In this document: one piece after another, positions 5,528 to 11,393 of the stretch | How positions within the stretch are numbered: position 1 is the first letter of the stretch | Layout of the letters: every line of letters starts with the position of its first letter | NCBI GenBank assembly: GCA_937881145.1 | Contig: CALGFL010000127.1 | Coordinates: 1 to 12,725 of the forward strand | Source of the DNA: an uncultured Bordetella sp. | Lineage (GTDB): Bacteria; Pseudomonadota; Gammaproteobacteria; Burkholderiales; Burkholderiaceae_B | Reading direction: 5' to 3' | DNA length: 12,725 nucleotides | Notes under the pieces: generated by a model | Databases searched by the model: none | Seen by the model: only the letters and a program-made list of their open reading frames with translations | What the model was told of the DNA's origin: nothing | Program-made: the position numbers and the translations under genes

Positions 5528-5862
5528 GGCCCGGATTCATGGCGCAGAGTGGGGCGCGGCGCGCGGCAGCCGGCCGTAATGGAAGATTTGTAGCAAATTG
5601 AAAACCGTCCCCTCGCGGCGATAGCCTGGGTGCGGCGGGGCAGGGGTGGGATACGCCGATTTACAAGCCAGTGTTTGTGCAGCGCGAGATATTCGTGAAC
5701 AATGCGTTTCAGGCGTTAGGCAATGCGCCCTTTTGCGGCCCGCTGGCAGGTGGGCCGATTCTTTTTTTGCCTTCAGTCCTCTCCAAGACACGCATCCTTC
5801 GCGCGGCGCAAGGCCGGCGGGGCTACACTGGCGGCATCGGCTATATCGGCACGGAGGCAGCC
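5528..5862. other. Intergenic region without a convincing gene
   Basis: Open frames cross this stretch on both strands but none has a ribosome site, a recognisable composition or a familiar product. It holds a terminator-like hairpin on the + strand (5736-5768) and a -10-like TACACT (5824-5829) about 35 bp before the ubiK ATG, without a clear -35. A TTGAAA (5598-5603) followed after 16 bp by GATAGC is a weak + strand promoter candidate upstream of the hairpin, which would allow a transcript of roughly 135 nt. Confidence 0.5.
5736..5768 (+). terminator. Terminator-like hairpin with no gene in front of it
   Basis: CGGCCC (5736-5741) pairs with GGGCCG (5752-5757); G-U and C-G pairs inside the 10-nt interval can lengthen the stem. 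After ATTC come seven T residues (5762-5768). The U run is on the + strand only. No + strand gene ends upstream, since the flanking gene glnK runs leftwards, so it may end a small RNA or an upstream leader. Confidence 0.5.
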
Positions 5863-6129
5863 ATGAACCGTACCCAGTGGATGGAAGATTTCCAGAAGAA
5901 TATTTCCGAGCTCATCGCCAAGAGCCCGGCCGCGGACATCGAGCGCAACGTCCGTTCGATGATGACCCAGGCCTTTACCCGCATGGATCTGGTCACGCGT
6001 GAAGAATTCGACGTACAGGCCGACATGCTGGCCCGCGCGCGGACCAAGGTGGACCAGTTGAGCGAGCAACTGCGGCAACTGCAGTCCCGTCTGGACGCCA
6101 TCGAAGCCGGCAAGACCACGACCGAATAA
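5863..6129 (+). CDS. ubiK: Ubiquinone biosynthesis accessory factor UbiK (BMFP family)
   Basis: This 88-aa soluble protein belongs to the BMFP/YqiC family, whose E. coli member assists aerobic ubiquinone synthesis together with UbiJ. The family core is clear: an N-terminal amphipathic part, the conserved LTR/FTRMDLVTREEFDVQ segment (38-52) and a C-terminal coiled coil from about residue 53 to 82 (LSEQLRQLQSRLDAIE), followed by a short polar tail. Length is normal for the family. GGAGG (5853-5857) lies 5 nt before the ATG at 5863 and fixes the start. Two TPR/ATP-grasp genes follow on the same strand after 38 bp, so a shared transcript is possible, but I see no functional reason linking ubiquinone synthesis to them. 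Confidence 0.9.
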   Translation: MNRTQWMEDFQKNISELIAKSPAADIERNVRSMMTQAFTRMDLVTREEFDVQADMLARARTKVDQLSEQLRQLQSRLDAIEAGKTTTE

Positions 6130-6167: not shown

Positions 6168-7616
6168 ATGCTCACACTCGATACGGCGGGCGTCGTCGCG
6201 CCGCAAGACGCCGCCGTGCATCTGGACGAAGTGGCCTCGCGCCTGCTTGCCCAAGGGCATGCATTGCTGATGGCCGGCCAGATCGAAGAAGCCATCAAGC
6301 CGCTGCAGCAGGCCACGGTGGTCCGGCCGCTCGAGCCGGGTCTCTATGAGGTTCTGGCCAACGCCATGCAGGCCGCGGGCCATGATGCCGACGCCACGGC
6401 GGCGCGTCTGGCCGCCCAGGCGATCCGGGAGCGCGCGGCGAGAGACCTCATCGCCATCGGCACCTCCTATGCCCGCCATAAGCAGTGGGACGCGGCAGGC
6501 TACTGGTTTCTGCGCGCGGTGCTGCTGGACCCGGACATGGCCGACGCGCACCTGCACATGGGCATCGCCCTGCACGAACTGGGCCGCGACGACGAATCCG
6601 AAATCTGCGCGCGCAATGCCTGTATGCGGCAGTCGATTTTCATCGACCAGGCGTGGCCCACGCAGCGGCGCGCCGTCCTGGTGCTTTGCACCAGCGGCCA
6701 GGACAACGTGCCGCTGCAATTTCTCATGCCTGCGCCGTTCAGCCGCCAGATACGCTGGACGATCGAGTTCGGCATCGTCGGGCCGGTGCGGGAACTGCCA
6801 TCTTACGACCTGGTGTTCAACGCCATCGGCGACACCGACCGGGCGCCGCGGGGGCTGGAAGCGGCGGCGCGCTTCGTGCCCAAGGCCGGCAAGCCGGTGC
6901 TCAATCCGCCGGACCGCATCCTGCGCACGTCGCGCGATCAGATTCCCGCGCTGCTGGCGGGCCTGGACGGCGTTCACGTGCCGTGCACTGCGCGCTGGGA
7001 CCCCGGCGCGGGCACGAGCCTGACCGCGTCGATCGCGGCGGCCGGCCTGCAATACCCCGTGACCATCCGCCCTGTGGGCAAGCACGGCGGCGCCGGACTG
7101 CGGCGCCTGGATTCGGGGCAGGAAGCCGAAGAAGCGGGGCGCGGCGAGAAGGGCGAGATGTACCTGAGCCGCTACTGCGACTACCGCGGCGCCGACGGGT
7201 ATTTCCGCAAGTACCGCGCGGTGTTCGTCGACCGCGAGCCTTTGCCCTATCACCTGGCCATCGGCGAGAACTGGGTGCTGCACTATGTGACGGCGGACAT
7301 GCGGGCCCATGCCTGGAAGACCGAGGAAGAACGCCGCTTTCTGGAGGATCCGCAGGCGGCGCTGGGCGCCGCGGCCTGGGCGGCGGTGCGCGAGATCGGC
7401 AAGCGCCTGGATCTGGATTACTGCGGCGTGGATTTTTCGCTGCTGCCCGACGGCCGCGTACTGGTGTTCGAAGCCAACGCCACCATGCTGGTGCATGCGG
7501 AAAGCGGCGAAGACGAAGTCCTGCGTTTCAAGAATCCGTACGTGCAGCGTATTTTCGATGCGTTCGAAGGCATGCTGGCGCGGCGGATGGTGCAGGGTCG
7601 GGAGCGGCGGTCTTGA
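6168..7616 (+). CDS. TPR and ATP-grasp domain protein (copy 1)
   Basis: This 482-aa cytoplasmic protein has three parts. Residues 24-160 are TPR-like helical repeats (for example EEAIKPLQQATVVRPLEPGLYEVLANAM and the AAGYWFLRAVLLDPDMADAHLHMGIALHELG unit, quoted here only by their ends: E40-M66 and A109-G139). Residues 167-245 form a Rossmann-like pre-grasp domain (VLVLCTSG, then LVFNAIGD). Residues 246-470 are an ATP-grasp fold: a glycine-rich loop RPVGKHGGAGL at 301-311, and the metal-binding strand DYCGVDFSLLP with Asp422, then VFEANATM with Glu435 and Asn437. Members of this fold join a carboxylate to an amine or thiol using ATP. Substrate and partner are unknown; the TPR part may hold a protein. 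The start at 6168 has a weak ribosome site. The gene overlaps the next by one base. Confidence 0.8.
   Translation: MLTLDTAGVVAPQDAAVHLDEVASRLLAQGHALLMAGQIEEAIKPLQQATVVRPLEPGLYEVLANAMQAAGHDADATAARLAAQAIRERAARDLIAIGTSYARHKQWDAAGYWFLRAVLLDPDMADAHLHMGIALHELGRDDESEICARNACMRQSIFIDQAWPTQRRAVLVLCTSGQDNVPLQFLMPAPFSRQIRWTIEFGIVGPVRELPSYDLVFNAIGDTDRAPRGLEAAARFVPKAGKPVLNPPDRILRTSRDQIPALLAGLDGVHVPCTARWDPGAGTSLTASIAAAGLQYPVTIRPVGKHGGAGLRRLDSGQEAEEAGRGEKGEMYLSRYCDYRGADGYFRKYRAVFVDREPLPYHLAIGENWVLHYVTADMRAHAWKTEEERRFLEDPQAALGAAAWAAVREIGKRLDLDYCGVDFSLLPDGRVLVFEANATMLVHAESGEDEVLRFKNPYVQRIFDAFEGMLARRMVQGRERRS
6243..7580 (+). repeat. Tandem module, copy 1 (TPR/ATP-grasp)
   Basis: This stretch (residues 26-471 of the first protein) is paralogous to 8456-9796 in the same orientation. 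Copies are colinear, with a net length difference of one residue, placed between residues 313 and 332. Over residues 167-222 I count 38 of 56 identical residues by eye; the ATP-grasp half is more alike and the TPR half less. Several DNA stretches in the grasp half, such as the one coding DFSLLPDG, are nearly identical. Confidence 0.85.
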
Positions 7617-9811
7617 TGGGGGGCGGGCTTTTGGAAAAGACGATGATTGCGCCGGGCCGGGCCGTCTGCAAATGCTGCGGCGGCGCCAGCCATTTGTGCG
7701 GCGTGGTCGATTTCTCGCGCTCTTGCGAGGATCGCACTGCGGGCACGAATGTCGAGCCTCATGCCGGCGTGCCTATCTCCTATTTTCGCTGCGGCCAATG
7801 CGGCTTCGTTTTCACGCCGGCGATGGACGAGTGGACGAGGCAGGATTTCTCCACCCATATCTACAACGACGACTACGCCCGGCACGATCCGGACTACCTT
7901 GGCAAGCGGCCGGTGGCGAACGCGGATTTCATCGCCCGGAATTTTCCGGAGATGGCGTGGGGAAATATGCTGGACTTCGGCTCCGGTTCCGGTTTGCTCG
8001 AAAAAGAGCTGAAATCGCGCGGGTTCGCGCAAGTCGATTCCTGCGATCCGTATGCAAGCGAAGCCGGCACGGGGCCGACTCCCGCGGAAAAATACCAGAC
8101 GCTGGTGTGCTTCGAGGTGTTCGAGCATCACCCGCAGCCGCGCGAGTTGATGGCCGAACTGAAGAAACTCCTGGCCGACGACGGCGCAATCCTGTTCAGC
8201 ACGTTGCTGGTCACCGACCAGGTGATGGCCGAAGGCATCGAGAACTGGTGGTACTGCGCGCCGCGCAACGGGCATATCTCTCTCTTTACCTCGCGCGCCT
8301 TGGCGGTTCTTGCCGCGCAGAACGGTTTCAAAGTGGGAAGCTTCAACGACGATCTGCATGTGTTCTACAAGGATTCGGTTCCCGCATGGGCAGTGAAATT
8401 CATTGAAGGCGATGCCGCGCAAAGTTCTTCATCTTCTTGCGGCGCCGCTGCGTCGCTGATCGTCCAGGGGCGCAAACTGCTCGAAGCGGGGCGGTTCGAT
8501 CAGGCCATGGACGCGCTGGAACAGGCTTCGACTGTCGATCCGCTCGAACCCGAAGCTTATCGTTTGTATGCCCAGGCTTTGCAGGCGGCGGGCATGCCCA
8601 TGAACGCCGAGGTGGCGCGCCTGGGTTACGAGGCGCTCCTGCGCAACTGCGCCACCGACCTGTGCGACCTGGGACAGGCGCTCTTGCAGCGCAGCGACTG
8701 GGGCATGGCCGGCTACTGGTACAAGCGCGCCTTGCTGCTCGACCCCGATCTGGTCCAGGCTCATCTGGGCATGGGCAAGGTCATGCTCGAACTGGACCGC
8801 GGCCAGGAGGCCGAACGCTACGCCCACCAGGCGCATCAATTGCAATCGCTGTATGTCGACGCGGACCAGCCGGCGCAGCGGCGCAGCGTGCTGGTCCTGT
8901 GCAGCAGCGGCCTGAGCGACATTCCGGTGAAATTCCTGATGCCCAGCGAACACAATCGCCAGATACGCTGGGCGATCGAATACGGCATCACCGGCCCCAT
9001 CCGGGAACTGCCGCCCTATGACCTGATTTTCAACGCCATCGGCGACGCGGACAAGGCGCAATGGGGCTTGAAGGTGGCGCAGGCGCTGCTCGCCACGGCC
9101 GACAAGCCGGTACTCAATCCGCCGGATCGCGTCATGCTCACTTCGCGCGATCAGATCGTGCACCTGCTCTCGGGCATCGAAGGTGTCACCATGCCGCCGA
9201 CGGTGCGCTGGGACAGCCGCTCGGGCACAAGCCTCGGGGCGGCGATCGAGGCGGCCGGCCTGGCCTATCCGGCGACACTGCGGCCGGTGGGCGGGCATGG
9301 CGGCAAGGGGCTGGTGCGACTCGAAACCCCGCAGGATGCGCAGGCGCAAGGCAGCCAAGTCGAACCGGGCGAGCACTACCTGAGCCGCTATCGCGACTAT
9401 CGTTCGCCCGACGGCTACTACCGCAAATACCGCGTAGTGTTCGTCGACCGCGAGCCTATGCCGTATCACCTGGCCGTCGGCGAGCGGTGGATGCTGCACT
9501 ACGTGACGGCCGACATGCGATCGCATGCCTGGAAGACCGAAGAAGAGCGCCGCTTCCTGGACGATCCGCAGCGAGCCTTGGGGCCCGCGGCCTGGGTTGC
9601 GCTGTGCGAGATCGGCAAGCATTTGGACCTGGACTATTGCGGCGTGGATTTTTCGCTGCTGCCCGACGGACGCGTGCTGGTGTTCGAGGCCAATGCCACC
9701 ATGCTGGTGCATCTCGAAAACCCGGACGATCCGGTGCTCGGTTTCAAGAACCCCTATGTGCAGCGCATTTTCGATGCTTTTGAAAGCATGCTGGCGCGGT
9801 GCGTGCCGTAG
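7616..9811 (+). CDS. Zn-finger SAM methyltransferase fused to TPR/ATP-grasp (copy 2)
   Basis: This 731-aa protein joins two enzymes. Residues 18-62 carry two CxxC pairs (Cys18/Cys21 and Cys59/Cys62), a likely zinc site as in sugar C-methyltransferase-type proteins. Residues 117-200 are a class I methyltransferase core: SAM-binding motif MLDFGSGSG (118-126), CFEVFEHHPQP (165-175) at the acidic motif IV/EH position, and a following ILFSTLL strand. A serine-rich linker (SSSSSC, 270-275) leads to a complete second TPR/ATP-grasp module (281-727), with the loop RPVGGHGGKGL (556-566), Asp678, Glu691 and Asn693. The ATG at 7616 overlaps the previous stop as TGATG, with GGGAG 11 nt upstream; a second ATG at 7643 is an alternative that would keep all domains. 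Role is inferred: ATP-dependent ligation plus methylation of one unknown substrate. It converges with the next gene, 16 bp away. Confidence 0.8.
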   Translation: MGGGLLEKTMIAPGRAVCKCCGGASHLCGVVDFSRSCEDRTAGTNVEPHAGVPISYFRCGQCGFVFTPAMDEWTRQDFSTHIYNDDYARHDPDYLGKRPVANADFIARNFPEMAWGNMLDFGSGSGLLEKELKSRGFAQVDSCDPYASEAGTGPTPAEKYQTLVCFEVFEHHPQPRELMAELKKLLADDGAILFSTLLVTDQVMAEGIENWWYCAPRNGHISLFTSRALAVLAAQNGFKVGSFNDDLHVFYKDSVPAWAVKFIEGDAAQSSSSSCGAAASLIVQGRKLLEAGRFDQAMDALEQASTVDPLEPEAYRLYAQALQAAGMPMNAEVARLGYEALLRNCATDLCDLGQALLQRSDWGMAGYWYKRALLLDPDLVQAHLGMGKVMLELDRGQEAERYAHQAHQLQSLYVDADQPAQRRSVLVLCSSGLSDIPVKFLMPSEHNRQIRWAIEYGITGPIRELPPYDLIFNAIGDADKAQWGLKVAQALLATADKPVLNPPDRVMLTSRDQIVHLLSGIEGVTMPPTVRWDSRSGTSLGAAIEAAGLAYPATLRPVGGHGGKGLVRLETPQDAQAQGSQVEPGEHYLSRYRDYRSPDGYYRKYRVVFVDREPMPYHLAVGERWMLHYVTADMRSHAWKTEEERRFLDDPQRALGPAAWVALCEIGKHLDLDYCGVDFSLLPDGRVLVFEANATMLVHLENPDDPVLGFKNPYVQRIFDAFESMLARCVP
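8456..9796 (+). repeat. Tandem module, copy 2 (TPR/ATP-grasp)
   Basis: This is residues 281-727 of the fusion protein, the paralogue of 6243-7580. The two stretches lie about 2.2 kb apart in direct orientation, separated by the methyltransferase-coding part. The divergence is too great for a recent duplication but the shared order and lack of gaps show common descent. Confidence 0.85.
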
Positions 9812-9827: not shown

Positions 9828-11393
9828 CTAGCCGATCTTGCCGGCCAGCTGGGCCGGGCTGGTCGGCAGGCCGATCAGGCTGTGGATGTTGTTCAGCACC
9901 GCCTGCGAGGTGCCCGGGTCCTGCTGCGCGTTATTGATGAGATCCAGCAGGTTCTTCGACCATGATTGCCGGCTGGGCGTGGTGATGTCCTCCACCAGAT
10001 CGCCCATCACGTATTTTTGCAGGTGCAAGGACGCGCTGGCGGACTGGCTCAAGGTCGCCTGCGCCAGCGCGCCGTCGATATAGCTGATCGTCGCCTGGCT
10101 CTGCGCGCTGTCGTTGATCTGATCGTAGTAATAGTTTTGCGATGCCTTGCTGCCGTCGAGCGCGAGCGGGCCGCCGGCCTGCAGCGGCGCGTGAAAGCTG
10201 GCCTGCAGCCGGGACTGCTGCGTTTGCGTGATCGTGTAGTCGTATCGGCCGCGGCTTTGCACAGTGGTGTTCTGCGAAACCTGGTACGAGTAGCTGTCCA
10301 CCTCGCCCGGCTGCATGGGATTGACCGGCTGCGTGGCCTGCGTCAGCGTGGCGCTGAAGTCGGCCAGGCCGGTCATCACGCTGTGGGCCGCCTCGCCGAG
10401 CACGGGCGACTGCGGCCAAGTGCGGGAAGCCGTCGCGCCGTAGTGGCTGTTGAGCGACTGGAAGGCCGACGAGAACATGGCGATGAGCTGCGCATTGCCG
10501 TGTCCGCGCGTGCCTTGGGCGGCGAACTGCTGCTGGTAATTGCTGATCGCCTGGGCCTGCTGGCTGGCGCTGCCCAGGATGGCGGCGTTGGACGTGTTCA
10601 CGCTGATCTGCATGGAACCCAACGGGCCGCTCGTCCGCACCGAACGCTGCGTGCCATCGATGTGAAAATCCACGGTCTGCGCGCCTTGCCCGGTGGCGTC
10701 GACGGACGCATGCAGTTCGACCGAGGCAAACACGCTGGCGTCGAACTGCTGCACGAGCCCGTCCAGGGCGAGCGTGGGCTGGCCGGACGAGGTCAGGCCG
10801 TCGATGGCTTGCTGGAAGCCGCCGGCCATCTTCAACAGGGCCGAGCGGTCCGCGTCGCTCAGCGCGCCGCCGGTGACCGCGATGGCGGCCGCGAGACCGT
10901 TGCTCTGATCGCCGAGCGTGAGCTGCACCTTGGCGCCGTCGCGCAGGGTGACTTCGAGCGAAATCTGGTTGTCGGCCCCCGTATGCAGGGCGGACTGCAT
11001 CGCGCTTGCCAGCGTGGCGCTGGGTACCGCATTGGTGGAGGGCAGGTATACCGATTGCGAGAAATCGTTCTCGCCGCCACCCAATTGCTGCAGCATGAGC
11101 CGGCCCAGGCCCTGCAGACGCCCCGAGAGCGTCGGCGCCGGGAAATTCTGCGCCATGGCCTTGCTGATGCCGTCCACCGCATTGTTTTCCCAGACCGGTT
11201 GCGGCGCGGGAATGGTATAGGTCGGCGGCGTCACCGACTGGATGCCGGTGATTGAAACGGTAGTCGAGTCGGGTGCGGTCTGCGAGGAAACGGCTGCCTG
11301 CGACAAAGCGCTTCCAGCAAAAGTGCTGGAAGCGGTCTGTACGGCTTGTGTTGGTGCCAGGACGGGTGCGCCCAAGGCGGCGACGGCGATCAT
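9828..11393 (-). CDS. Cysteine-free, Gln/Ser/Ala-rich protein of unknown function
   Basis: I do not recognise a characterised family. The 521-aa product contains no cysteine and is rich in Ser, Gln, Ala and Thr, with long low-complexity-like polar stretches, as in secreted or axial structural proteins. Its N-terminus (MIAVAALGAPVLAPTQ) is mildly hydrophobic but lacks the basic residues of a normal signal peptide. Regions that look conserved rather than random are GRLQGLGRLMLQQLG (91-105), DGTQRSVRTSGPLGS and KYVMGDLVEDIT near the C-terminus. It reminds me of proteins in pseudomonads and relatives that databases sometimes label 'lactate dehydrogenase' without an enzyme fold; this is from memory and unchecked. 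The ATG at 11393 has AGGGG six bases upstream. A sigma-28-like promoter precedes it, hinting at flagellar co-regulation. Confidence 0.75.
   Translation of the reverse strand: MIAVAALGAPVLAPTQAVQTASSTFAGSALSQAAVSSQTAPDSTTVSITGIQSVTPPTYTIPAPQPVWENNAVDGISKAMAQNFPAPTLSGRLQGLGRLMLQQLGGGENDFSQSVYLPSTNAVPSATLASAMQSALHTGADNQISLEVTLRDGAKVQLTLGDQSNGLAAAIAVTGGALSDADRSALLKMAGGFQQAIDGLTSSGQPTLALDGLVQQFDASVFASVELHASVDATGQGAQTVDFHIDGTQRSVRTSGPLGSMQISVNTSNAAILGSASQQAQAISNYQQQFAAQGTRGHGNAQLIAMFSSAFQSLNSHYGATASRTWPQSPVLGEAAHSVMTGLADFSATLTQATQPVNPMQPGEVDSYSYQVSQNTTVQSRGRYDYTITQTQQSRLQASFHAPLQAGGPLALDGSKASQNYYYDQINDSAQSQATISYIDGALAQATLSQSASASLHLQKYVMGDLVEDITTPSRQSWSKNLLDLINNAQQDPGTSQAVLNNIHSLIGLPTSPAQLAGKIG
11309..11334 (-). 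repeat. Strong hairpin inside the first 30 codons
   Basis: CGCTTCCAGCA (11309-11319) has an exact inverted copy at 11324-11334 with a 4-nt loop, giving an 11-bp perfect stem over codons 20-29 of the cysteine-free protein gene. It could slow early translation or mark a processing site. Confidence 0.6.

Follow-up and report, generated by a model that had tools for sequence, protein, structure and literature searches.

The two adjacent genes described here, A and B, each join a TPR arm to an ATP-grasp domain, and B carries in addition a zinc-ribbon methyltransferase. They lie in the window, a stretch of 12,725 nucleotides from an uncultured Bordetella sp. that was analysed as a whole. Our preferred reading, to which we assign a probability of roughly 0.4, is that A and B are TPR-guided ligases with the same chemistry and different targets, and that B also methylates its product. 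That both are ATP-dependent ligases is very probable; for a macromolecular acceptor the chances are about even.

Organisation and neighbourhood of the two genes

Gene A (6168..7616 on the forward strand, 482 amino acids, stop included) is supported by its open reading frame, its homologues and an AlphaFold2 model (pLDDT 90.5). It comprises TPR helices (residues 13-154, 6204..6629, forward strand; Pfam TPR_11, 3.2e-10; paired helices in the model) and a RimK/LysX-type ATP-grasp domain (residues 157-482, 6636..7613, forward strand; invariant R301, D422, E435 and N437). Gene B (7616..9811, forward strand, 731 amino acids; open reading frame and AlphaFold2 model, pLDDT 89.3) starts at an ATG that overlaps the stop codon of A by one base; an alternative in-frame ATG is found at 7643. 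All parts of B are on the forward strand: a zinc-ribbon-like segment (7667..7801), a class I SAM-dependent methyltransferase core (Methyltransf_23; residues 94-240, 7895..8335), a variable serine-rich linker (about residues 263-273, 8402..8434; low pLDDT at 266-273), TPR helices (residues 274-409, 8435..8842; Pfam TPR_11, 5.2e-11; AlphaFold2 model) and a RimK/LysX-type ATP-grasp domain (residues 412-731, 8849..9808). The linker differs in sequence among orthologues and is absent from one of the six. Based on Pfam and the models, the TPR array is N-terminal in A and comes after the methyltransferase in B; the B model, whose pTM is 0.61, does not settle how the domains are arranged. The domains and the duplication proposed in the initial annotation are confirmed by Pfam profile matches, predicted structures and homologues, and the models give the ATP-grasp fold in both proteins and the methyltransferase fold in B.

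The genes of the window are, in order, MFS, MFS, TetR, an ammonium transporter, P-II, ubiK, A, B, a gene without a family and an amino-acid-type ABC transporter. The ubiK gene (BMFP; 5860..6129, forward strand; Pfam BMFP, 2.5e-23) ends 38 bases upstream of A and is regarded as context outside the system; A and B overlap by one base and the next gene follows B after 16 bases. With gaps of 38, -1 and 16 bases, a precursor gene would not fit beside the pair, and therefore a peptide (RiPP) pathway at this place, one of the kinds mentioned initially, is not supported. No glycan, polysaccharide or flagellar genes were recognised in the annotated window. The gene at 9828-11393 was rejected as a dedicated partner: it has matches in 10 of the 15 genomes of the genus, seven of which lack A/B. 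Flagellin was likewise rejected as a target by position; it is present in all three carrier genomes of the genus (3/3), never near A/B. A GT41 protein is encoded beside flagellin in one of these three carriers (FB-8).

The ATP-grasp domain

In the predicted structures, the grasp domains of A and B have the RimK/LysX-type ATP-grasp fold. With the grasp domain alone as query, a PDB profile search had no significant match (best E 0.1); the assignment was decided by matches of the predicted structures. The scores against TIGR00768 (18.4 bits for A and 30.5 for B) miss the curated RimK cut-off of 143.4, and PF08443 is not listed for either protein in the Pfam search. Some other members of the family may pass Pfam cut-offs. 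The fold matches include the graspetide ligase PsnB at rank 42, TupA-like proteins are absent among the rows listed for the A and B models, and ATPgrasp_ST (sugar-transfer associated) is weakly matched by 12 of 26 members (E <= 1, best 0.0022).

R301, D422, E435 and N437 are invariant in 122/122 rows of an alignment in which A and B are joined by the best 120 of at least 1663 homologues. Based on hhalign, D422, E435 and N437 line up with the Mg-binding Asp, Glu and Asn of a RimK-type protein, the sole RimK at E <= 1e-15 from a RimK family search of 14 genomes; R301 presumably occupies the position where lysine is usual in ATP-grasp enzymes. Enzymes of this fold form acyl phosphates, which are then joined to amines or thiols, and RimK and LysX/ArgX modify proteins.

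The wider TPR/ATP-grasp family

A and B form one branch within a large TPR/ATP-grasp family, which contains at least 1663 proteins at E <= 0.001 (8000 candidates scored) and is found in 68 of 399 sampled Burkholderiales genomes at E <= 1e-30, about one in six. In the 80 loci examined, its members are for the most part single genes scattered among differing contexts. The TPR regions vary in length, some having a few repeats and others long arrays. Flagellin has no match in these 80 loci, which contain one fliD-like match (L064). A methyltransferase homologue as the usual neighbour was rejected, the 80 loci yielding one weak match (L064, 25% identity, E 8e-4).

A more specific association is seen for SerC. 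A search of the 399 genomes gave 17 copies above 370 bits, each adjoining a TPR/ATP-grasp gene of the same orientation, with 17-150 bases between the match ends; SerC is also found in 19 of the 80 named loci. Among the controls, none of 18 lower-scoring SerC places adjoins any of the 20 grasp places compared, and none of 22 lower-scoring places in grasp-carrying genomes lies within 2 kb of a grasp gene. SerC matches were listed down to about 302 bits, and the SerC and grasp searches each scored at most a few candidates in any one genome; further, weaker cases may therefore exist. Solved phosphoserine aminotransferases are close relatives of the SerC-like protein (E 4.1e-101). The strict adjacency suggests phosphoserine or a derivative as the donor. 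When 83 grasp domains are placed in a tree, one group of 34 rows takes in 16 of the 17 rows labelled SerC, and the remaining one belongs to a distant group. A and B fall in neither; the clue therefore concerns the family rather than A/B directly, and may not be transferable to them. A PLP decarboxylase is another recurrent neighbour (FB-8, 1 of the 80 named loci and a Rhizobium plasmid). It is a rather speculative extension that TPR/ATP-grasp proteins in general are a new class of widespread targeted modifiers, parallel to OGT and FlmG, adding to proteins picked by the TPR arm, or to the glycans of these proteins, an amide-linked, phosphoserine-derived amine supplied through a dedicated SerC paralogue, with B both ligating and methylating.

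The methyltransferase part of B

The methyltransferase part belongs to what we call the METHYLTRANSFERASE family. Conservation was computed on the best 120 of 762 homologues: both CxxC pairs (C18/C21 and C59/C62) are invariant where aligned (115/115 and 119/119). The SAM-motif residues D120, G122 and G124 are likewise invariant, together with Y213, P216, G219 and H220. In the profile search, Zn_ribbon_8 is touched at E <= 1 by nine members out of 25, the best E being 0.0017. In the B model the fold resembles that of TcaB9-type sugar methyltransferases (VIA-align list), the best of these matches ending near chain residue 277. Solved relatives found by sequence are headed by UbiG-type O-methyltransferases (E 9e-12), with TcaB9 at just E 0.94; the substrate could therefore be other than a sugar.

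A match to the METHYLTRANSFERASE family at E <= 1e-55 is present in 6 of the 399 Burkholderiales genomes, that of the window included, and free-standing relatives reach 64% identity (Burkholderia). There are 38 matches of fused size, seven of which are B proteins (one essentially that of the window). Among the other 31, TPR domains occur in 10, an FkbM methyltransferase domain in 4 and a glycosyltransferase domain in 5 (GT9 twice, GT41, GT4 and GT2); a sixth carries PF05637, which we take to be a glycosyltransferase. Flagellar genes, as judged by eye, are present in four of eight loci of relatives (L146, L147, L148 and L150), and in L146 and L150 the flagellin is backed by a match to one confirmed with Pfam; in the other four loci a flagellar link was not seen. 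The methyltransferase is fused to TPR and GT9 in L148 and L150, and to TPR and GT41 in L146. Separately, the metagenome-assembled genome clean401 has an FkbM methyltransferase on the contig of A, separated from A by two genes and similar to the FkbM proteins that adjoin the family in L149 and L150.

Duplication, gene conversion and probable loss

The genome of the window (77% complete) contains four matches below E 1e-90: A, B and copies on contigs C543 and C236. A match is present in three of the 15 genomes of the genus. In a 33-row tree, a group of eight A-type proteins is sister to one of seven B-type proteins (97/91); three unfused relatives branch outside the two, and all seven B rows carry the methyltransferase fusion. 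Contigs of equal length suggest that A and B share one contig in four more cases (P0002/P0010, P0004/P0011, P0006/P0009 and P0007/P0013).

In 8 of the 12 non-carrier genomes of the genus ubiK is followed by comM (1.5 kb fetched), and FB-8 has A and B, together with the family-less gene, between these two; the block therefore looks like an insertion. The contig of the window itself shows no comM. In clean401, A and the family-less gene precede comM, with no B between A and the downstream gene. Because A adjoins that gene and pairs with the A of FB-8 in the tree (100/100), B was, judging from the sequences, probably lost in clean401.

In FB-8, nine overlapping 30-codon windows (A-frame codons 295-444) are identical in nucleotides between A and B, and the TPR windows show 23-50% protein identity. 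As far as can be read from the sequences, these 150 identical codons in the grasp cores are the product of gene conversion. The A and B genes of the window share no identical 30-codon stretch (best 89% in nucleotides). A common grasp core with diverged TPR arms points to one chemistry with different targets as the best explanation. The initial proposal, in which two ligases could make successive bonds on one substrate, is not supported, given the converted cores and diverged TPR arms of FB-8.

Proposed function and alternative explanations

In the preferred reading, the TPR arm would hold a macromolecular acceptor, either a protein or a glycan carried on a protein. The grasp domain, with ATP and Mg, would turn a carboxylate into an acyl phosphate and couple it to the amine of an amino acid or amino alcohol. 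A and B would catalyse the identical reaction, the diverged TPR arms choosing differing targets, and the zinc-ribbon methyltransferase would methylate the ligation product of B, most likely a sugar on it. Several points speak against this reading: the window has no recognised glycan or flagellar gene, flagellin has no match in the 80 loci of the wider family, the SerC-linked members belong to other clades than A/B, R301 presumably takes the place of the usual lysine, and UbiG-type O-methyltransferases head the solved relatives of the methyltransferase by sequence.

A doubtful alternative is a small-molecule pathway, in which A and B build a metabolite by ligating amino acids or amines in free form, the methyltransferase tailors the product and the TPR arms just assemble the enzymes; however, no pathway genes are annotated beside the pair, the variable TPR length resembles that of protein-modifying TPR enzymes, and the nearest folds to the grasp domains act on proteins. 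We consider it unlikely that capsule or LPS is decorated, its uronic acids being amidated by the ligases with an amine derived from phosphoserine and the same sugar being methylated by the methyltransferase. Cj1438 of Campylobacter jejuni is a precedent in the published description (PMC11800379), and the divergent SerC that adjoins a family member in 17/17 cases, the weak ATPgrasp_ST matches (12/26) and the sugar-methyltransferase fold all fit, but no polysaccharide gene was recognised within the window and the A/B clade excludes the SerC-linked members.

Graspetide-like (RiPP) peptide maturation with an unlinked precursor is very improbable. Loci combining ATP-grasp ligases and methyltransferases are described for RiPPs (PMC8939145) and PsnB is among the fold matches, yet the pair has no space for a precursor gene next to it, the graspetide model is touched by 1 of 26 members (E 0.025), and the transporters of the window are two MFS proteins and an importer-type ABC set, none adjoining A/B. 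The least we can credit is an inactive or regulatory pair from an expanding paralogue family: the scattered single genes of the family, their varied contexts and the probable loss of B in clean401 would agree with this, but the metal-site residues of the grasp domain are invariant (122/122 rows) and many methyltransferase residues are fixed across the best 120 homologues.

Comparison with known systems

The initial statement that no characterised system has this architecture holds in that no equivalent was found in the titles and abstracts searched; none of those matching describes TPR with ATP-grasp, and subscription literature is thinly covered. TPR fusions may be mentioned in the survey of ATP-grasp amidoligases that Iyer and colleagues published in 2009. 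RimK (glutamate ligase of S6/RpsF) and LysX/ArgX (amino-acid ligases of LysW) show 10-18% identity in the nine best rows; A and B differ from them in the extra TPR arm and do not reach the RimK cut-offs. The deoxysugar C-methyltransferases TcaB9, KijD1 and MtmC, at about 14-15% identity, appear to share with B zinc-binding-type cysteines and a class I methyltransferase, but the second half of these enzymes (about 405 residues) is missing in B, which runs on into TPR. Graspetide synthetases are alike in combining an ATP-grasp ligase with a methyltransferase, and differ in that A/B have no adjacent precursor peptide gene.

Cj1438, as described, is a multidomain protein like A and B, consisting of GT2 and a TupA-like ATP-grasp amidoligase that forms an amide with phosphorylated amino alcohols, serinol-P or ethanolamine-P (PMC11800379). 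Relatives of A/B have SerC or PLP decarboxylase neighbours. Cj1438 has neither TPR nor methyltransferase, A/B lie outside a capsule locus, and the likeness is one of description. FlmG, whose TPR is reported to bind flagellins, provides a precedent for TPR-directed modification (PMC7591256). FlmG, GT41/OGT and TPR-GT9 proteins, as described, resemble A/B in placing a TPR arm ahead of a C-terminal catalytic domain, and fusions to such TPR glycosyltransferases occur among the relatives of the B methyltransferase. In FlmG and OGT that domain is a glycosyltransferase, whereas in A/B it is an ATP-grasp domain, and the window has no flagellin gene. If A and B are indeed TPR-targeted ligases, amide ligation would join the known TPR-targeted chemistry; in its design, the pair would parallel FlmG and other TPR protein glycosyltransferases, with an ATP-grasp domain as the catalytic part.

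Genes neighbouring the TPR/ATP-grasp family

Among the matches listed from the 399 Burkholderiales genomes searched, 17 divergent SerC paralogues score >370 bits, and all 17 adjoin a gene for a TPR/ATP-grasp protein; the genomes are G356, G540, G313, G336, G468 and 12 more. The genome of Bordetella sp. FB-8, which carries both genes of the tandem pair (A and B), contains an operon-like array (L152, 5932-14287) composed of a PLP decarboxylase, a distant ATP-grasp protein, a SerC-like transaminase, a TPR/ATP-grasp member, a family III CoA transferase and a TPR/GT9 protein. Part of this array is also present in the window's own genome (contig C236, L010) and in clean401, a MAG with A only.

Directly downstream of the pair, the gene at 9828-11393 of the window encodes a 521-residue protein with zero matches in Pfam and NCBIfam. 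Its relatives are found in 10 of the 15 genus genomes, seven of which lack A and B.

On the Cupriavidus plasmid p352-3, a P-II regulator gene adjoins an ATP-grasp relative (L190, 7722-9529), and both are surrounded by nickel/cobalt resistance genes. A P-II gene is also located near A and B in the window; this common proximity is perhaps due to chance. A Rhizobium tumorigenes plasmid carries three genes in a row (L188, 7716-12467), encoding a protein with a TPR annotation and a match to the grasp domain, a protein of 514 residues without known family and a PLP decarboxylase.

TPR glycosyltransferases and flagellin

Flagellin genes adjoin a 1821-residue frame (L146, 4363-9828) combining a methyltransferase of the type found in B, TPR repeats and GT41 (Pfam). 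In FB-8, flagellin directly adjoins a 1320-residue TPR, GT41 and GT2 frame (L162, 9087-13049), followed by genes which, judged by eye, resemble those of nucleotide-sugar synthesis; this is probably a flagellin glycosylation locus.
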